Notes under the pieces: generated by a model
Databases searched by the model: none
Told to the model about the DNA's origin: nothing
What the model saw: only the letters and a program-made list of their open reading frames with translations
Shown: positions 3,955 to 50,729 of the stretch, one piece after another
Layout of the letters: every line of letters begins with the position of its first letter
How positions within the stretch are numbered: the first letter of the stretch is position 1
Assembly (NCBI RefSeq): GCF_023973145.1
Contig: NZ_CP099546.1
Span: 2,356,001 to 2,420,000 of the forward strand
DNA: 64,000 nt
Direction of reading: 5' to 3'
From: Natronosalvus vescus
GTDB lineage: Archaea; Halobacteriota; Halobacteria; Halobacteriales; Natrialbaceae
Position numbers and translations under genes: made by a program

Positions 3955-4725
3955 TCACTCTGCGGTTTGCCCGTTCCCGCTTGAATCGACGTCGACGTAT
4001 GCCCGCGTGAGTTCCACGAGCGTCTGGCGGTACGCTCGAGGGGTCGGGTCGTGGCTCAGGTCGCGAAACTGCCGGCGGAACGTTCCGAGATCGACCTGTG
4101 GGGCGTCCATCGCCGCCGCGTGGGCGAGATCGTACAGCCGGTGGTCGGCCTCGAGCAGGCCGTGTCGCTCGGCGAGTGCGAGCGCGAACGCGGCGTTGAC
4201 CGCGGTAATCTCGGGATCCGAAGCCGGTGAATGGCGGGAGCCCGGAGGTCGGAGAGTCGACTCTGCGGGGCGATTTGCGAGTGCCGCGGCGAGTGAGGAC
4301 TCGAGAAACGAGAGCAGCTTCGTTCCGGGGCCGACCGAGAGCGTGATGTCGTCGGCGTAGATGTCCTTCGCGTGGTTGGCGATCTGGTAGCAGTGGGCGA
4401 GTTTTCGGCGCTCGACCTGCTTTCCGGCGAGGGAGAGGTAGAGCGCCTCCTCGGTCGACTGGACGTGAGAGGGGTGGCCCTCTTCGTGGCGAGCCATGTG
4501 GGCGAACTCGTGTAAGGCGAGTTCGCGGGCCATCGCCGAGGAGGCGGTCTGGCTCGAGATGTTGAGCACGTGGTGGTCGTCGTGGTGTCCGGCCCAGGTT
4601 CGCTCGTCGGGGTCGTCCTGGATTCGAACGTACACGGGGCGTGAGAGATCCTGTTCGGTCTCGAAGAGATCCCGGGCGCCGAGAAAGGGTGCCGCAGGGC
4701 CAGCACCCTGTATGCGGAGCTCCAT
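3955..4725 (-). CDS. DUF5781 family putative metallopeptidase
   Basis: Haloarchaeal protein of 256 residues that I match to DUF5781 by pattern. A zinc-protease HEXXH signature is visible (LHEFAHMARHEEGH, with His72, Glu73 and His76), followed by SHVQSTEEALYLSLAG, where a third ligand could lie. That makes a gluzincin-like fold plausible, but activity is inferred. I start at MELRIQGAG because the family N-terminus begins there; longer frames upstream add unrelated Arg-rich sequence. The gene is divergent from the EF-2 gene, with about 290 bases between their starts. A GPGTKLLSFLESS segment follows the putative active site. Confidence 0.75.
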   Translation of the reverse strand: MELRIQGAGPAAPFLGARDLFETEQDLSRPVYVRIQDDPDERTWAGHHDDHHVLNISSQTASSAMARELALHEFAHMARHEEGHPSHVQSTEEALYLSLAGKQVERRKLAHCYQIANHAKDIYADDITLSVGPGTKLLSFLESSLAAALANRPAESTLRPPGSRHSPASDPEITAVNAAFALALAERHGLLEADHRLYDLAHAAAMDAPQVDLGTFRRQFRDLSHDPTPRAYRQTLVELTRAYVDVDSSGNGQTAE

Positions 4726-5014
4726 GTGTAAAAGTATCATGGGCTGGGCGGGTATGGCTCTTGCGGGGGTTTGCTCTGGACGGACTGGGCGGTTACTCGA
4801 TTGCGGGGTTTTGCTCAGGGCGGAATGCCGGCCGCTCGAGGCGCGTTTCTGGCGCGGACTGAGCCGTTCGTGTGAACGCGCGTACCGAGAGCTCAACGTG
4901 TGAGCTATTCACTCACGCAAACGTGACGTATCAGGCGGTACGGTGGTTTCAGGGATGGTTCCAGCCGATTCGAAACAGCACCCTTTTGACCCCGCTGCCG
5001 GTAGGGGTTCGTAT

Positions 5015-7201
5015 ATGGGCCGACGCAAGAAGATCGTTCAAGAGTGTGAACGGCTGATGGGCAACCCGGAACACATCCGGAACATCGCCATCGCCGCTCA
5101 CGTTGACCACGGTAAAACGACACTTTCTGACAACCTCCTCGCGGGAGCGGGCATGATCTCCGACGACACGGCAGGTCAGCAACTCGCGATGGACACGGAA
5201 GATGACGAACAGGAGCGTGGGATCACCATCGACGCGGCGAACGTCTCGATGACCCACGAGTACGACGGAACCAACCACCTGATCAACCTCATCGACACGC
5301 CCGGCCACGTCGACTTCGGTGGCGACGTCACCCGTGCGATGCGTGCCGTCGACGGTGCGCTCGTCGTCGTCGACGCCGTCGAAGGTGCCATGCCCCAGAC
5401 CGAAACGGTGCTGCGCCAGGCCCTTCGCGAGGGCGTCAAACCGGCGCTGTTCATCAACAAGGTCGACCGCCTCATTTCCGAGCTGCAGGAAGGCCCCCAG
5501 GAGATGCAAGAACGCCTCCTGAAGGTTATCAAGGACGTCAACGACCTGATCCAGGGCATGACCGAGGAGATGGACGACGTCGACGACTGGACGGTCTCCG
5601 TCGAAGGCGGTACCGTCGGCTTCGGATCCGCGCTGTACAAGTGGGGTGTCTCCATGCCCTCGATGCAGCGCACCGGCATGGACTTCGGTGACATCATCGA
5701 CCTGGAGCAGGCCGACAAACGCCAGGAACTCCACGAACGGACGCCCCTGTCGGACGTCGTCCTCGACATGGTCTGTGAGCACTTCCCGAACCCGGTCAAC
5801 GCCCAGCCCCGCCGTATTCCGCGTATCTGGCGCGGTGACGCCGAGTCCGATCTGGCAGAACAGATGCGGGTCGTCGACGAGGACGGCGAGGTCGTCCTGA
5901 TGGCCACCGACATCTCGATGGATCCTCACGCCGGCGAAATCGCGTCCGGCCGTGTCTTCTCGGGTACCCTCGAGAAGGGCCAGGAGCTGTACGTCTCCGG
6001 CGTCGCGGGCAAGAACCGCGTCCAGTCCGTCGGGATCTACATGGGCGGCGAGCGCGAGGAAGTCGAGAAGGTTCCCGCCGGGAACATCGCGGCCGTCACC
6101 GGCCTGCGCGACGCCATCGCTGGCTCGACCGTCTCGAGTATCGAGATGACGCCGTTCGAGTCCATCGAACACATCTCCGAGCCCGTCATCACGAAGTCCG
6201 TCGAGGCGAAGACGATGGACGACCTCCCGAAGCTCATCGAGGCGCTCCGGCAGTTCTCGAAGGAGGATCCGACGATCCAGATCGACATCAACGAGGACAC
6301 CGGCGAGCACCTGATCTCCGGGCAGGGCGAACTCCACCTCGAGGTCATCACCCAGCGGATGGAGGCCAACCAGGGCATCCCCGTCAACACCGGTGAGCCG
6401 ATCGTCGTCTACCGCGAGGCCGTCCAGCGTGCGAGCGACCAGGTCGAGGGTATCTCGCCCAACCGCCACAACCGCTTCTACATCACCGCTGAGCCGCTCA
6501 CCGAGGAGCTGATCCAGACGATCCAGCTCGGTGAGGCCTCGATGGACATGCCCGAACTCGAGCGCCGTGAGGCGCTGCAGGAGGCCGGGCTCGACAAGGA
6601 CACGTCCCAGAACGTCGAACACATCCACGGGACGAACATCCTCATCGACGACACGAAGGGGATTCAGCACCTGAACGAGACGATGGAACTCGTCATCGAG
6701 GGGCTCGAGGAGGCGCTGGACAACGGCCCACTCGCCAACGAGCCAGTTCAGGGTACCCTGATTCGGCTACACGACGCCAAGCTCCACGAGGACACCATCC
6801 ACCGTGGTCCGGCACAGGTCATCCCGGCGACGCGTGAAGCGGTTCACCGATCGCTGATCGACGGTCACATCAAGCTCCTGGAGCCGATGCAGGACGTCCG
6901 TATCGACGTGCCGAACGACCACATGGGTGCCGCCTCCGGCGAGATCCAGGGTCGCCGTGGCCGCGTCGACGACATGTACCAGGAGGGTGACCTCATGGTC
7001 GTCGAGGGCATCGCGCCCGTCGAAGAGATGATCGGGTTCTCGAGCGACATCCGCAGCGCGACCGAGGGTCGTGCCGCCTGGAACACCGAGAACGCCGGCT
7101 TCGAGGTCATGTCTAACTCGCTCCAGCGCGAGACCATCATGGAGATCCGCGAGCGCAAGGGCATGAAACTCGAGTTGCCGCAGTCGATCGACTACATCTA
7201 A
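5015..7201 (+). CDS. aef2: Translation elongation factor aEF-2
   Basis: GTPase that drives ribosome translocation. The 728-residue length fits haloarchaeal EF-2. G1 is AHVDHGKTT (residues 28-36), G2 lies around ERGITI, G3 is DTPGHVD (from 94) and G4 is NKVD (from 148). Domain IV has the diphthamide loop LHEDTIHRG with the modifiable His596, and the C-terminus is the conserved LPQSIDYI-type tail. The start [14 protein letters not shown] is the family start; a longer frame would begin 24 codons upstream. A T-rich TTTTGA lies about 27-32 bases ahead of the ATG, fitting a leaderless transcript. Codon use is strongly biased, as expected for a highly expressed gene. Confidence 0.98.
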
Positions 7202-7511
7202 GGCAGCTCGCTGTTTTACAGATTTTTTCTACTCGTTTCTGTCCGTTGTTCTCGAAGCGTCCTCACGAGCTCGAGTGGCGTCGCCGCCCGTGTGGTCGAG
7301 TGCGCCCGTCTCCAGCGCTCACCCCGCTCACTTGCAGGTAGTGGGTACTCAGTCACGTTCGTCGAGTTGTGATCCGCTGTGTCGGGGTGATTGAGTCCGG
7401 ACTCGAGAACCGGCCCCGACCTCTTAGCAGCGTCACATGTATGCAGGGTCGTGGACAACTCGAGACATAAAGGTTTAAGCACACCTCATTACATATGCTC
7501 GAACATCCAAC
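7202..7511. other. Intergenic region with EF-2 terminator and NCS2 promoter
   Basis: The 310-base gap opens with a T-rich tract just past the EF-2 stop. It ends with TTTAAG at 7474-7479, about 33-38 bases before the permease ATG, which I read as its TATA element. The middle part carries frames on the reverse strand with no protein pattern, so no gene is called. Confidence 0.5.
7221..7230 (+). terminator. T-rich terminator after EF-2
   Basis: A run of six T within GATTTTTTCT lies about 20 bases after the EF-2 stop. Archaeal RNA polymerase stops at such U-tracts without needing a hairpin. The position is right, and no strong stem is seen. Confidence 0.5.
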
Positions 7512-8996
7512 ATGGGGGTTAGCGAAACGATCGCGGAGTACTTCGACTTCGCGGCACACGAGACGAGCCTTCGAACCGAGCTGATCGCCGGGGCGACGAC
7601 GTTCCTCGCGATGGCGTACATCATCGTCGTCAACCCGTCGATTCTCGTTCCCGCAATATTCGGCGCGCCGCCGGGCGAACTGTCGCCCACGTCGGAGACG
7701 GAGATTGCCGGCGACGTCTACACCTACACCGAGGTGTTTCAGATGCTCGCGGTGGTGACGATACTGGCATCGATTGTCGCCATCGCGGTGATGGCGTTCT
7801 ACGCGAACCGACCGTTCGGCCTGGCTCCCGGCATGGGGCTGAACGCTTTCTTCACGTTCACGGTCGTGTTGATCCTCGGCGTCCCGTGGCAGGTCGCCCT
7901 CGCGGCGGTCTTCGTCGAAGGAATCATCTTCATCGCGCTCACGGCCGTCGGTGCACGTCGATACATCATCGAACTCTTCCCCGAACCGGTCAAGTTCGCC
8001 GTCGGCGCCGGTATCGGTATCTTCTTGCTCTTTCTGGGGCTCCAGGAGATGGAACTCGTCGTCGCCTACGACGCGACCCTCGTCAACCTCGGAAACGTCC
8101 TCGAGAGCCCGATCGCGGCGTTCTCCCTCGCCGGTCTGACGCTGACGCTGTTGCTCTACGCACGCGGGGTTCGTGGCTCGATCATCATCGGTATCCTGAC
8201 GACCGCGATCGGTGCGTGGCTCGTGACGCTCCTGGGGCTGGTCAGCCCTGGCGTCATCACGCCCGAACAGCCGTACGAGGACGTGACGAACGAGGGCCTG
8301 CTCTCGGTGCTGACGTCCGTCCAGTACGACTTCACGCCGCTCGTCTGGGGCTTCGTCGAGGGGCTCGGTATGATCGTGGACGACCCGCTGGTGTTCGCCC
8401 TGGTGGTCTTCACGTTCTTCTTCGTCGACTTCTTCGACACGGCGGGGACGCTCATCGGCGTCTCCCAGGTCGGCGGCTTCCTCGATGAGCAGGGCGATCT
8501 GCCTGAGATCGAGAAGCCGCTGATGGCCGACGCAGTCGGGACGACGGCCGGCGCGATGATGGGGACGTCGACGGTGACGACCTACATCGAATCCTCGACG
8601 GGGATCGAAGAGGGTGGCCGCACCGGATTCACCGCGCTCGTCGTCGGCGGATTCTTCGCGCTCTCGTTGCTGTTCGTGCCGCTGATGAGCGCGATCCCGC
8701 AGTACGCGACGTACCTCGCGCTGGTGGTCGTCGGGATCATCATGCTCCAGGGGGTCGCCGACATCGACTGGCAGGATCCCGCCTGGGCGATCGCTGGCGG
8801 TCTAACCATCACCATCATGCCGCTGACCACCTCCATCGCAAACGGACTGGCAGCCGGGATCATCAGCTACCCGCTCGTGAAGGCGGCGATGGGCGACCAC
8901 CGCGACGTCTCGCTGGGGCAGTGGCTCCTCGCGGTCGCGTTCGTCGTCTACTTCGTGATCTACTTCGCGGTACAGGCCGGTCAGTTCGGGTTCTGA
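7512..8996 (+). CDS. NCS2 family (AzgA-type) purine permease
   Basis: Nucleobase:cation symporter of 494 residues with about 12-14 membrane helices. It likely imports guanine, hypoxanthine or adenine. Family signatures seen: the N-terminal TELIAGATTFLAMAYIIVVN segment, MAFYANRPFGLAPGMGLNAF, FVDFFDTAGTLIGVSQVGG and the GTSTVTTYIESSTGIEEGGRTG motif, which together separate the AzgA/PbuG branch from the UraA/UapA branch. The start fits the family, and a TATA-like TTTAAG sits at -33 to -38. The gene is followed by a separate glutaredoxin gene, with no obvious functional link. Exact substrate is inferred. Confidence 0.93.
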   Translation: MGVSETIAEYFDFAAHETSLRTELIAGATTFLAMAYIIVVNPSILVPAIFGAPPGELSPTSETEIAGDVYTYTEVFQMLAVVTILASIVAIAVMAFYANRPFGLAPGMGLNAFFTFTVVLILGVPWQVALAAVFVEGIIFIALTAVGARRYIIELFPEPVKFAVGAGIGIFLLFLGLQEMELVVAYDATLVNLGNVLESPIAAFSLAGLTLTLLLYARGVRGSIIIGILTTAIGAWLVTLLGLVSPGVITPEQPYEDVTNEGLLSVLTSVQYDFTPLVWGFVEGLGMIVDDPLVFALVVFTFFFVDFFDTAGTLIGVSQVGGFLDEQGDLPEIEKPLMADAVGTTAGAMMGTSTVTTYIESSTGIEEGGRTGFTALVVGGFFALSLLFVPLMSAIPQYATYLALVVVGIIMLQGVADIDWQDPAWAIAGGLTITIMPLTTSIANGLAAGIISYPLVKAAMGDHRDVSLGQWLLAVAFVVYFVIYFAVQAGQFGF

Positions 8997-45931: not shown

Positions 45932-46252
45932 TTACTGCGGTGGGTCTGCGTCATCACCGAAGCCACTCCCGTACGCGTCGATGATTTCTGTGATGGTAAC
46001 CTCGTACGCATCGTACCACTCCGTCCAGCGGGCTTTCGCCGTTTTGTGGTCTGCATCCGTCCCAAACGACTCGAGTGCATCCAGCGACTCCCAGTAGTAG
46101 GCAACGAGAATCTCCTCACTCCCGGGGGCGTGCCACGTGCGTTTGCCACGATACCCGTCTGTCCCTTCGGCGACTGCCTGTATTGCATCGTTCAGCTCGT
46201 GGAACTCTTTGTCGTATGCTCCCGGCTCGAGACGGAACGTAACGAGATACAT
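45932..46252 (-). CDS. Antibiotic biosynthesis monooxygenase-like protein
   Basis: A 106-residue protein of the dimeric alpha-beta barrel type, with the pattern MYLVTFRLEPGAYDKEFHEL, AIQAVAEGTDGYRGKRTWHA, then YYWESLDALESFGTDADHKTA and KARWTEWYDAYEVTITEI. That suits ABM (cofactor-free monooxygenase) or EthD-like domains, which often act beside oxidases or heme pathways. No catalytic residues are certain; a Trp-His pair (RTWHAPG) is near the middle. It is the first gene of an accessory-looking region and is divergent from the FilR1-type regulator. Confidence 0.75.
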   Translation of the reverse strand: MYLVTFRLEPGAYDKEFHELNDAIQAVAEGTDGYRGKRTWHAPGSEEILVAYYWESLDALESFGTDADHKTAKARWTEWYDAYEVTITEIIDAYGSGFGDDADPPQ

Positions 46253-46538: not shown

Positions 46539-47375
46539 ATGACCATGGATGCGACACCAGACGATATCGAATTTCTCGTCACCTCGGATCACCGCGTAGC
46601 CGTACTTGGTACACTGGCCACGGGGCCGAGTGACCGTGATGAGTTGCGATCCGCAACGGGAGCTTCTTCACCAACCATAAGCCGGATACTCGCTGACTTC
46701 GAGGAGCGCAACTGGATCGAACGGGAAAGCAGGATGGCCCAGCTGACGGGCCTGGGCGAGTTCGTTGCCGACCGACTATCGGAGTTCGTGGATGCGATGA
46801 CGATAGAGCAACAGCTGCGAGAGGTCTGGCACTGGTTACCTCACGAATTCGATGGATTCAGTGCTGAGCTATTTTCGGACGTTGACGTCACATACCCGGG
46901 TCCCGGTTATCCCGACAAGCCGACGGAACGCCGGCTCGAGCTGATAACGGATACATCTACGTGGCGCGGGGTTGGAGTGGCGATGTTGGGATTACGGACG
47001 TTAGAGGCCTCTTTCGATCGGTTCCTCGACCAGCAAGATAAATTCCAGTGTGAGTACATTTATTCGCCGGAAGTGTTCGAGGAACTCTTGTCGTGGGGGG
47101 ACACAGAAACCATCATGGCGGCCGCTGATAGCGAAAGCTACACCGTGTTGCTCCACGATGATCTGCCGATCGACGATCGATTCGAAATCTGTATCTTCGA
47201 CGATCGGGTGACCATCTGTTGTTACGATCACGAGAAGGGTGGATTACAGGCGCTCGTCGAAACGTCCAGTGCCGACGCGCGGAGGTGGGCGGAGTCCTAC
47301 TACGATCGGTTCCGTACGGAATCCCAGCCGCTCGAAGACGGCTACGAACGCGGATCGCTACCGTCGCTCAAGTAG
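46539..47375 (+). CDS. HTH regulator with FilR1-type domain
   Basis: Transcription factor of 278 residues. The N-terminal winged helix-turn-helix (residues ~8-75, DDIEFLVTSDHRVAVLGTLA, then RDELRSATGASSPTISRILA) binds DNA. The rest is the FilR1-type ligand-sensing middle domain widely fused to wHTH in haloarchaea (TERRLELITDTSTWRGVGVA, AADSESYTVLLHDDLPIDDR, FEICIFDDRVTICCYDHEKG). Starts at ATG 46539 or 46545 are equivalent; a GTG upstream is possible. It lies on the same strand as the flavo-oxidase gene, with a palindrome-rich gap between, so it is the natural candidate to control it (inferred). Confidence 0.85.
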   Translation: MTMDATPDDIEFLVTSDHRVAVLGTLATGPSDRDELRSATGASSPTISRILADFEERNWIERESRMAQLTGLGEFVADRLSEFVDAMTIEQQLREVWHWLPHEFDGFSAELFSDVDVTYPGPGYPDKPTERRLELITDTSTWRGVGVAMLGLRTLEASFDRFLDQQDKFQCEYIYSPEVFEELLSWGDTETIMAAADSESYTVLLHDDLPIDDRFEICIFDDRVTICCYDHEKGGLQALVETSSADARRWAESYYDRFRTESQPLEDGYERGSLPSLK

Positions 47376-47405: not shown

Positions 47406-47445
47406 TTTCACGACGTGAAAGATTTTAGGCAGTGAAATTCTTTCA
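47406..47445. promoter_or_regulatory. Two GTGAAA-type palindromes before the flavo-oxidase gene
   Basis: TTTCAC-GAC-GTGAAA (47406-47420) is a perfect 6-bp inverted repeat. Thirteen bases later TGAAA-TTC-TTTCA (47433-47445) forms another. GTGAAA half-sites recur at 47415 and 47432, 17 bases apart. The block sits just upstream of the TATA box, where a regulator could activate or block transcription. Confidence 0.65.
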
Positions 47446-47454
47446 GCGGGAATC

Positions 47455-47460
47455 TATAAC
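47455..47460 (+). promoter_or_regulatory. TATA element of flavo-oxidase gene
   Basis: TATAAC, 25-30 bases before the ATG and 10 bases after the palindromes, is the likely core promoter. Confidence 0.6.
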
Positions 47461-47484
47461 GGTTTCGCGGTCGGATCGTCTCGC

Positions 47485-48927
47485 ATGGTGTCTGACGCAG
47501 ATACAGACGACCCAATCGACAAGTTCGATGCGGACGTCTTCGGCGACGTCATACGGCCCAAGGATTCCGACTACGAAGAAGCACGTTGCGTCTGGAACGG
47601 CATGATCGACAAACAACCCGCCGCAATCGCCCGCTGTCGAGATGTCGCCGACGTCATCGCCGCGGTCGCGTTCGCCCGCGACGAGGGCCTGGTCGTCGCC
47701 GTTCGTGGCGGCGGACACAACGCCGCGGGTCTCGGAACCTGTGACGGCGGGATCGTCATTGACTGCTCCCCAATGAACTGGGTCGACGTTGACCCGGATG
47801 CACGGCGCGTCCGCGTCGGCGGTGGTGCCACCTGGCGAGACGTCGATCACGCGACCCAGTCGTTCGGACTGGCCGTTCCTGGTGGGGTCGTTTCCCACAC
47901 TGGCGTCGCGGGCCTCACACTCGGCGGCGGATACGGCCACCTCCGACGAGCGTATGGGCTGACCTGCGACAACCTCGTCTCGGTCGATCTGGTCACCGCC
48001 GACGGCCGCTTCCTGACCGCCAGCGAGGATGAGCATACCGACCTCTTCTGGGCGGTACGCGGGGGCGGCGGTGCCTTCGGCGTCGTGACCGCCTTTGAGT
48101 TCGAAGCACATCAGATCGGAACCGAGTTGGCCACGGTCGAGACGTGGCACCCGATCGAGGACGCGACGGCGGCCTTCGAGACCTGGCGCGACTTCGTCGA
48201 GACCGCGCCACGAACCGTGAGCGGCGAAGCGATCATCTGGGGGGTTCCCGAGGATCCCCACTTCCCGGAGGAGTATCACAACAAGTCGGTTGCCATCATC
48301 ACCGCCGTCCATTCCGGCGACGACAGAGAGGGCGAGGAACTCCTCCGCCCGCTTCGGGAATTCGGCTCGCCATTGTTCGACTTCAGCGGTCGAACGCGAT
48401 ACCTCGACCTCCAGCAGGGGTTCGATCCGTTTTTCCCGGCCCAGAAGCACCGGTACTACCAGGGATCGGTCTACCTCGATTCGCTCGACGACGACACAAT
48501 CACCGACATCGTCGACCGGGAGGGATCGCGTCCGGATCCGAGGATCCTCTACTACGTCTGGAACCTGGGTGGTGCGATCGCCGACGTCCCGGAACACGCC
48601 ACGGCCTTCAGCGGTCGAGAGCATCCGTACCTCCTCGCCCTCGACTGCAAGTGGGATGACCCCGAGGCAGACGAGGCGGTTCTCGACTGGGCGCGATCCT
48701 TCCAGCGGGACATGGAGATCCACTCACCGGGCGGGGGTTATCGAAACTTCCCTGGACTTGGCGAGGCGGACGACATCGACTCCGAGCGGTCACCCCGAGG
48801 CGACGAGACGACCGACCGATTAATCGAGTTGAAAGACCAATACGACCCGACGAACGTATTCAGCCGCAATCACAGCGTCAGGCCGTCCGAATCGGAACGG
48901 GCTGACGGAGGCACAGGCCATGAGTGA
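47485..48927 (+). CDS. FAD-dependent oxidase, berberine-bridge-like
   Basis: Flavin oxidoreductase of 480 residues of the FAD_binding_4/BBE class, cytosolic (no signal peptide). The FAD domain has the RGGGHNAAG motif with His78 as the probable covalent flavin attachment site, then GVAGLTLGGGYGHLRRAYGL and DLFWAVRGGGGAFGVVTAFE. The C-terminal BBE motif is LIELKDQYDPTNVFSRNHSV, ending in the usual Asn. A second covalent Cys, as in bicovalent oxidases, is not at the expected place, so single attachment is more likely. Substrate unknown: sugar, alkaloid-like and aldehyde oxidases share this architecture. The rhodanese gene begins inside its last codons. Confidence 0.92.
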   Translation: MVSDADTDDPIDKFDADVFGDVIRPKDSDYEEARCVWNGMIDKQPAAIARCRDVADVIAAVAFARDEGLVVAVRGGGHNAAGLGTCDGGIVIDCSPMNWVDVDPDARRVRVGGGATWRDVDHATQSFGLAVPGGVVSHTGVAGLTLGGGYGHLRRAYGLTCDNLVSVDLVTADGRFLTASEDEHTDLFWAVRGGGGAFGVVTAFEFEAHQIGTELATVETWHPIEDATAAFETWRDFVETAPRTVSGEAIIWGVPEDPHFPEEYHNKSVAIITAVHSGDDREGEELLRPLREFGSPLFDFSGRTRYLDLQQGFDPFFPAQKHRYYQGSVYLDSLDDDTITDIVDREGSRPDPRILYYVWNLGGAIADVPEHATAFSGREHPYLLALDCKWDDPEADEAVLDWARSFQRDMEIHSPGGGYRNFPGLGEADDIDSERSPRGDETTDRLIELKDQYDPTNVFSRNHSVRPSESERADGGTGHE

Positions 48928-49366
48928 GACCGACCAGCGTAGGCCATCCAGGGTACAGCGGCCCCGGCACAAGAATGGTGTCAAGCCTGGATACGAGGAG
49001 TTGGTTCGCGCGGCCGAAGCCAGCGTCGGGACGTATACGCCAGCGGAAGCGATCGATATGGTCGGCGAAACCGGCGTTCTCTTCATCGATGTCCGCGACG
49101 CTGTCGAGCTGTCTGACGGGATGGTTTCCGGAGCCATCCACGCGTCCAGGGGACGGCTCGAGGCTCATCTGGATCCCGACAATCCACGGTACGTGTGTGA
49201 ACTCGACGACGCGGCCGAGATAATCTTCTACTGTGCGAGTGGAGCGCGTTCGGCACTCGCTGCCCAGCGGGCTCAGGAACTGGGATACGATCGCGTTCGG
49301 TACCTCGATGGTGGGATCGCCGCGTGGACGGACGCTGGTGGACAGAGACAGGCGATCGATAACTGA
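48920..49366 (+). CDS. Rhodanese-like sulfurtransferase
   Basis: A single-domain rhodanese of 148 residues with the catalytic Cys105 in IIFYCASGARSALAA, the CxSGxRS active-site loop. TPAEAIDMVGETGVLFIDVRD and HASRGRLEAHLDPDNP are also typical, as is the final YLDGGIAAWTDAGG. The N-terminal ~25 residues are basic. Its ATG overlaps the flavo-oxidase stop by eight bases, so the two are transcribed together and may be translationally coupled. That pairing of a covalent-flavin oxidase with a sulfurtransferase is unusual and hints at sulfur transfer to or from an oxidised substrate (inferred). Confidence 0.92.
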   Translation: MSETDQRRPSRVQRPRHKNGVKPGYEELVRAAEASVGTYTPAEAIDMVGETGVLFIDVRDAVELSDGMVSGAIHASRGRLEAHLDPDNPRYVCELDDAAEIIFYCASGARSALAAQRAQELGYDRVRYLDGGIAAWTDAGGQRQAIDN

Positions 49367-49378
49367 AGTTGAGATTGA

Positions 49379-49972
49379 ATGTTTCCCGAACACATCGAGA
49401 CGGAACGACTCAGATTCGAACGAATCTCCCACGATACCGTCGACGTCTTCGAACTTCACGAACTTTACGCCGATGGAGACGACGCGGAGGAGCTGTTCGA
49501 GTACTGGGATTCGTCGCCCCACGAGACGGTGAAAGAGACGTACGACTACGTAGACGAGGCCGAACAGCTATGGGACGACGTTGAGGGGGCGAAGTACGTG
49601 ATCCGACCGAACGAGGGAGAAGACGGTGCGGACGTCATCGCCGGAACGACGGGACTGTAGCCGGACTGGAAAAACCGATCTGCGAACCTTGGTATTCTTC
49701 TCGAGAAGCGATTCTGGGGCCGGGGGTACTCCGGCGAACGAGCCGACGCCCTGCTCTCCGTGGCGTTCGACCGACTTGATCTCGAACTCGTCGTCGCCGC
49801 CCACATCGACGGGAACGAGAAGTCTCGACGGGCAATCAACAAGTACGTCGAACGGTATGGAGGTCAATACGAGGGTCTTCTCCGGAATTGGATTCCGCTG
49901 ACGGACACGGTTGCTGACGTTCATAGATATGCCATTTCACGTGAAGAATATCTTGAAGCGACCGAATACTGA
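49379..49972 (+). pseudogene. GNAT acetyltransferase gene interrupted by in-frame TAG
   Basis: One reading frame encodes a full GNAT acetyltransferase of about 197 codons but has TAG at codon 94 (49658-49660). Before it: MFPEHIETERLRFERISHDT and YVIRPNEGEDGADVIAG, ending in TTGL. After the TAG, in the same frame: PDWKNRSANLGI, KRFWGRGYSGERADALLSVA with the acetyl-CoA loop, then NEKSRRAINKYVERYGGQY. The family has TGL-Tyr-PDW here, so a single base change of a Tyr codon (TAC/TAT to TAG) explains it. It begins 12 bases after the rhodanese stop, as if it were the third gene of that operon. Confidence 0.85.
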
Positions 49973-50162
49973 GTAGTTATCCTGCATTGAACGATCACTA
50001 CTTTCGAAGACGATGCCGAGCTTCGTGCAACATTGCGCTGTAGGCAGCAACGCCAGAACGATCTGACAAATTTGGGACAATCGAAGTAACAGACGCCTAA
50101 ACACGCTGTGCGGTGTGATAACGTGCCTGTCGCTTGCCGATGCCGGCCGTAGCGGCGACATC

Positions 50163-50483
50163 ATGCCCAAAGAGTACGTCCTATCGGGTAAGGGAATCGC
50201 GGACATGAATCGGTATGTGAACGAGTATCTTCCGGCCACACGAGCCACCGTGGATGAATACGGCGGCACGTTACTGATCTACGAATTCGACCCTGAATCG
50301 GTCGAAGGCGAATGGGATTATGCCCACACCATCGTTGCCGAATTTTCATCCGCGGACGCAGCGTAAGAGTGGTGGAACGATGAGCCATCCCAATCTGAGG
50401 AACTCGATCAGATGCGCGACGAGGTTTTCGACGACGTCAAGATCATATTTACACCAGAATTCACGCCTGAAGACCTGCAGTGA
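50163..50483 (+). pseudogene. DUF1330-like gene interrupted by in-frame TAA
   Basis: A 107-codon frame resembling DUF1330 (dimeric alpha-beta barrel) is stopped by TAA at codon 68 (50364-50366). Before it: MPKEYVLSGKGIADMNRYVN, EYGGTLLIYEFDPESVEGEW and TIVAEFSSADAA. After it, in frame: EWWNDEPSQSEELDQMRDEV and FDDVKIIFTPEF. The EF-S-x-x-x-A-x-x-WW order fits the family's usual core, with one codon lost to a single change (Lys, Glu or Gln to TAA). It follows the TAG-broken GNAT gene on the same strand, so the two breaks may reflect decay of one module. Confidence 0.72.
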
Positions 50484-50729
50484 GTTCTCCCTCAACACAT
50501 TCCTTCTCGAGTGGATTTAGCGAATCACTGAATTGGGTGGTGCTGCATTCCGCGCTGTGTATGCAGCATAGTTGCCAAACCCTGTTGACAGCTATGGAAT
50601 TCAACAGAGCCACTGACACTGACGCTGCCGCTGGCGCTACTTGCCACCGATACTGTCGCTGTTGGTAACGCTGACGGCGTCACCTGACGATGAACGGGCT
50701 CCACGCCCCCGACTCGAGCCGACCCGCAC

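Follow-up and report, generated by a model that had tools for sequence, protein, structure and literature searches.

Within a 64,000-nucleotide stretch of the Natronosalvus vescus genome (here called the window) we found a regulator gene (REG), an operator, a flavoenzyme gene of the EncM type (OX), a rhodanese gene (RHOD) and a broken acetyltransferase frame (GNAT) that together form a compact block recurring in other haloarchaea. The reading we favor, though with rather less than even confidence, is that of a horizontally mobile, self-regulated flavoenzyme cassette that is switched by a ligand and has exchangeable partners for sulfur disposal. Its anatomy, its conservation and that of its operator, its pattern of decay and the EncM homology of its oxidase are established by sequence comparison; from the same comparisons we infer that REG binds the operator, that O2 supports the turnover of OX and that sulfur is involved.

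An earlier note on this DNA had described REG, OX and RHOD as co-directional and tightly packed, and the coordinates and Pfam domains bore this out. REG (46545..47375, plus strand) encodes a 276-residue regulator with an HVO_A0261_N winged-helix domain (PF25213) and a FilR1_middle domain (PF08350); we placed its start at ATG 46545, not GTG 46524, as ATGGAT is conserved in relatives. The promoter of OX proved palindrome-rich, again as described: operator 1, a dyad recognized by alignment (TTTCAC-GAC-GTGAAA, 47406..47420) that starts exactly at 47406 and is centered 72 nt 5' of the OX start, is followed by operator 2, an inverted repeat recognized from sequence and alignment (TGAAA-TTC-TTTCA, 47433..47445) that is weaker in most relatives, and by a TATA-like element (CTATAA, 47454..47459, plus strand) 26–31 nt 5' of the OX ATG that is kept in all ten aligned loci. 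OX (47485..48927, plus strand) encodes a 480-residue FAD-dependent oxidase/oxygenase, assigned to the EncM type from Pfam (FAD_binding_4 and BBE), phmmer and AlphaFold/Foldseek. The eight bases it had been said to share with RHOD are ATGAGTGA (48920..48927, plus strand), and RHOD (48920..49366, plus strand) encodes a 148-residue protein with the active-site loop CASGARS. After a 12-nt gap comes the GNAT frame (49379..49972, plus strand), recognized by alignment of its relatives and by the Pfam match of an intact relative.

Conservation of gene order had been proposed as a check, and the order was not strain-specific: REG-OX-RHOD-GNAT recurred at seven loci besides that of the window, eight in all, whose flanks are unrelated and whose carriers belong to several genera and two families; this rules out an arrangement unique to the window strain. 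Nearest orthologs of OX (79–84% identity, the closest 82–84%) were patchily distributed: of the family's 125 genomes seven carry one, counting that of the window, and none of these is a congener; a further one is in a genome from a different family, and two Halococcaceae MAGs also have one. We compared ten loci, called type A here (the window, L040–L046, L064 and L067), the named carriers being Natronococcus sp. A-GB7, N. pandeyae and Natrarchaeobius chitinivorans, with MAGs besides. REG adjoins OX in nine of the ten; RHOD and GNAT, or their remains, lie 3' of OX in eight, and in two MAG loci REG-OX persists beside a decayed RHOD. The exception to the first count is L045 (N. pandeyae), where an alpha/beta hydrolase gene, a second HVO_A0261/FilR1_middle regulator gene (42% to REG) and a gene called TnpB-like by eye lie between REG and OX (4659–8638).

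No flanking gene at cassette-like similarity was common to the loci, save one in L046 and L064. The OX of L045 is 89.8% identical in nucleotides to that of L046, from the other family, versus 89.2% to that of its congener L044, and two types of RHOD allele with different N-termini have been exchanged among the cassettes of L043, L044, L045 and L046 with the 8-nt overlap retained (RHOD of L043 is 93% to that of L045 and 82% to that of L044, yet its OX is 96% to that of L044). This cross-family closeness of OX and mixing of RHOD alleles indicate that the block moves and recombines. The radical-SAM and spermidine-synthase-like genes that flank the window cassette are not adjacent in congeners, and no insertion point could be defined from them.

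Decay has been unequal across the block. Each of the ten loci has an intact REG and an intact OX; RHOD is intact in seven and GNAT in four (broken or missing in the other six), from which we take REG-OX to be the core, RHOD its usual partner and GNAT dispensable. Comparing relatives with the window gave dN/dS values of 0.14–0.19 for REG, 0.15–0.23 for OX and 0.24–0.45 for RHOD, the last indicating purifying selection with the weakest constraint of the three. The defects in RHOD are an internal deletion in L041, a transposase-like sequence fused to a remnant in L064 and at most a relic in L067 (the latter two read by eye), and all three deficient loci are MAGs, in some of which assembly error is possible. 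Since RHOD has been lost from three of ten loci and is under weaker constraint, OX appears not to need it. These counts, the swapping of RHOD alleles among cassettes and the highest dN/dS at RHOD would also suit a reading in which REG-OX is the sole functional unit, RHOD and GNAT are hitch-hikers, and the overlap simply reflects a gene-dense mobile block. We consider that improbable, as the 8-nt overlap persists across the two diverged allele types, dN/dS for RHOD stays below 0.5, and the cultured named carriers (Natronococcus, Natrarchaeobius) have intact RHOD.

RHOD matched PF00581 at 73.8 bits and has its catalytic Cys in a CxxGxRS-type loop, which identifies it as a single-domain rhodanese; this Cys is retained in the seven intact orthologs, and PDB relatives include 2hhg and 6mxv. 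The overlap with OX is exactly 8 nt in 8 of 8 loci, leaving no room between the genes for a separate RHOD promoter, one of the two findings that the earlier note had named as refuting its proposal (the other being a strain-specific gene order), and the two genes are probably translationally coupled. A search for substrate clues among RHOD relatives elsewhere was dropped: 11 other homologs (42–60% identity) had no OX nearby and shared no neighbor beyond very close relatives.

Two other genes had been given roles that the comparisons did not support. GNAT had been called an acetyltransferase by reading through a stop: its frame in the window carries an in-frame TAG (49658–49660, codon 94, which is Tyr94 in intact relatives), and the gene is intact in only the four loci mentioned. 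The nonsense codon likewise rules out four intact enzymes in the window block. The window fragment had no Pfam match, and the intact relative in L040 matched PF13302 (Acetyltransf_3). Because the remainder of the frame still shows purifying constraint (dN/dS 0.12–0.15), the lesion is either recent or a sequencing error. Just 3', a DUF1330 gene (50115–50484) has a single in-frame TAA (50364–50366) and then reads on, so that two neighboring genes each carry one nonsense codon. The ABM-like gene on the other side of REG (45932–46252, minus strand), suggested as a second oxidation step, matched PF13826 rather than PF03992 and was not conserved at any type-A or sister locus compared; it is not part of the unit.

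The promoter of the window has counterparts in all ten loci, where the TTTCAC dyad, the second dyad and CTATAA stand in the same order, with CTATAA at 26–31 nt before the ATG. The arms of TTTCAC-N3-GTGAAA are kept throughout (L043 and L067 show one or two changes) while the three spacer bases vary, and the sequence is a single site in the 3.84-Mb genome. Together with the recurrence of the block in seven further loci with unrelated flanks, this argues against chance, although the operator loci, being related by descent, are not independent observations. CTATAA is predicted, from its placement, to be the TATA box of a leaderless OX mRNA. Regulation by a REG-operator switch is well supported, and REG itself would be the protein that binds the dyad.

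The description of REG as FilR1-type held in part. REG has the HTH-plus-FilR1_middle architecture of FilR1 from Methanosaeta harundinacea; FilR1, however, belongs to the phosphorelay response regulators and has a receiver domain at its C-terminus (PMC3991700), and a Pfam search of REG found no receiver-domain match. The fold of REG is instead predicted to be TrmB-like. Its AlphaFold model (pLDDT 84) had TrmBL2 as the best PDB fold match, and like TrmB/TrmBL2 it combines a winged helix with a second domain matching a phospholipase-D-like fold (Foldseek 1e-11), but identity is only about 10–14% and the domains are placed differently (rmsd about 18 Å over both). A vicinal Cys-Cys pair in the window REG (residues about 225–226, alignment columns 226–227) is kept in type-A regulators and also occurs in the related L099, L077 and L045 regulators, with Gly-Gly or Gly-Val in the divergent-type REG; it might serve to sense thiols or persulfides.

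For OX, phmmer placed EncM first (E 5e-111, 375 bits over residues 12–468), well ahead of 6-hydroxy-D-nicotine oxidase and mitomycin radical oxidase, and Foldseek with the AlphaFold model (pLDDT 88) returned EncM chains as all of its top ten (TM 0.89–0.95; 43% identity in the alignment). Full-length homology and fold thus both place OX in the EncM type. The oxygen pocket of EncM comprises V135, V136, H138, T139, L144, L116 and L117 (PMC7662398). OX keeps His78 and the first five of these, and differs in having T for L116 and W for L117 (5/7 identical). T139 is invariant, including in homologs of uncharacterized chemistry, and H138 is common to EncM and, among the haloarchaeal homologs examined, only the window clade, as delimited on a FastTree-only tree. 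EncM-like oxygen chemistry is possible in OX. At the positions of Y249 and E355, which we take to be substrate-site and proposed catalytic residues of EncM, all ten type-A enzymes have I and Y instead, which makes EncM's own reaction unlikely; OX also differs in having no polyketide genes nearby and in having a dedicated regulator and a rhodanese. As for the covalent-flavin, BBE-like oxidase of the earlier note, its FAD_binding_4 and BBE domains stand, and a single flavin link is predicted, giving an 8-alpha-His78 mono-covalent FAD (H78 is present in every homolog aligned). Where the Cys motif of bicovalent BBE enzymes would presumably lie, OX has GVVSHTG, and the second, 6-S-cysteinyl link of classical BBE is not expected.

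These relatives bear on two further readings. McrA, the mitomycin radical oxidase, oxidizes an antimicrobial and is a model for a detoxification or resistance cassette in which a xenobiotic or antimicrobial would be sensed by REG, oxidized by OX and acetylated by GNAT, with RHOD there to protect thiols and sulfur only incidental. McrA is the next structural relative of OX after EncM (Foldseek 1.1e-37, TM 0.83–0.90), and the block is mobile, patchy and self-regulated with dispensable accessory genes, all of which suits such a role; but the McrA match is far weaker than that to EncM (149 versus 375 bits), the block has no transporter, and the pairing of OX with TauE/SafE in the sister clade, described below, would be left unexplained, so that we hold this to be a rather unlikely alternative. 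Unlikely, too, is that OX oxidizes a sugar/aldose, an alcohol or an aromatic for catabolism, under a TrmB-like, sugar-sensing REG and with RHOD countering peroxide/thiol stress. While the predicted fold of REG is of that kind and many BBE-fold relatives are carbohydrate oxidases, the latter are distant from OX (about 20% identity versus 43% for EncM), and neither a sugar transporter nor a dehydrogenase is conserved alongside.

Support for the cassette reading came from 40 other OX loci, sampled as best-scoring homologs and with neighbors called by tblastn to a few references. A REG-family gene lay beside OX in 33 of the 40, and TauE/SafE with DUF7512 lay directly 3' of OX, in the rhodanese slot, in 16; the baselines per genome are 6–15 FilR1_middle genes and 1–11 TauE genes, and in genome G024 the copy beside OX is the sole TauE. 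RefSeq annotation of plasmids of Natronorubrum aibiense and Natrinema zhouii agrees with the OX-DUF7512-TauE/SafE arrangement. In this sister group, whose OX is about 50% identical to that of the window, the REG-family gene is divergent and never co-directional with OX (35 pairings), and its product is only about 30% identical to the window-type REG. The intergenic region between them carries TCTCAC-N3-CTGAAA, in most cases centered 73–75 nt before OX (72 in the window); some sister operators are listed at 35–36 nt, where another in-frame ATG was taken as the OX start. As the operator class and spacing are common to regulators so diverged, REG-operator-OX looks like an old, rearranged unit.

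Among the other haloarchaeal OX loci (L076–L115 and L126) a widespread sister unit combines the divergent FilR1-type regulator, the common operator class, OX, DUF7512 and TauE/SafE, sometimes with an ABM gene, and several of these units are on megaplasmids. An OsmC-family gene occupies the RHOD slot in locus L058, and genome G098 has the order REG-OX-OsmC. In L118–L125 two different EncM-like OX genes repeatedly form a divergent pair; near such pairs, and near OX paralogs that stand singly, we detected neither the regulator nor a sulfur partner, a point against the cassette reading.

That the tightly coupled position is filled by one sulfur-handling gene in one OX clade and by another in a second clade is a strong lead from gene neighborhoods. 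It is a lead and not a proof, since it was noticed after the fact and loci within a clade are not independent; RHOD and TauE, being on different OX clades, may each have been acquired for a reason of its own. The earlier proposal of oxidation followed by sulfur handling thus gains independent support from the sister OX-DUF7512-TauE/SafE loci, the sulfur role itself staying conditional. On the cassette reading, REG (TrmB-like/FilR1-like, with a second domain of ligand-binding type) would bind TTTCAC-N3-GTGAAA beside the TATA box and so gate a leaderless OX-RHOD mRNA; OX, with mono-covalent FAD, would oxidize or oxygenate a small organic substrate using O2; and the translationally coupled RHOD would accept sulfane sulfur or sulfite that this reaction releases or that accompanies it. 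TauE/SafE, a sulfite exporter, would fill the role of RHOD in the sister clade, and GNAT would be a dispensable accessory, broken in the window.

EncM is the founding flavin-N5-oxide enzyme, known from polyketide biosynthesis as the antibiotic-making oxygenase of the enterocin pathway in Streptomyces, and a review asks whether it stands alone or is the first member of a wider class (PMC7662398). Haloarchaea hold many regulated EncM relatives, two clades of which adjoin sulfur-handling genes, and this points to an unrecognized flavin-sulfur pathway in salt-loving archaea. Our searches of an open-access library turned up no description of this regulator-oxidase-rhodanese cassette. With a defined operator, a defined regulator and a short list of candidate substrates, the role of EncM-like enzymes outside natural-product clusters becomes directly testable.

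Among the closest known parallels are sulfane-sulfur circuits in which rhodanese and TauE are partners, namely ScCsoR-PDO-rhodanese-TauE of Streptomyces coelicolor and the bigR operon (PMC7533328, PMC5823870). A more specific reading, very improbable in our estimate, would put an EncM-type enzyme in the position of the persulfide dioxygenase or of sulfonate monooxygenases, oxygenating an organosulfur compound or persulfide, possibly via a flavin-N5-oxide, and passing the sulfur product to rhodanese (type A) or to TauE/SafE sulfite export (type B) under one REG-operator switch. Against the cassette reading, the eight cassette loci had no further gene in common, and neither a persulfide dioxygenase (metallo-beta-lactamase fold) nor a sulfonate transporter nor another sulfur gene was conserved in the type-A block. 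Like the known circuits, the haloarchaeal loci bring a local transcriptional regulator, in those circuits a repressor, together at a single regulated locus with a rhodanese, a TauE-type exporter or both (PMC7533328, PMC5823870). They differ in that a flavoenzyme takes the position of the persulfide dioxygenase, that the regulator is TrmB/FilR1-like, and that rhodanese and TauE are split between clades, not found together.
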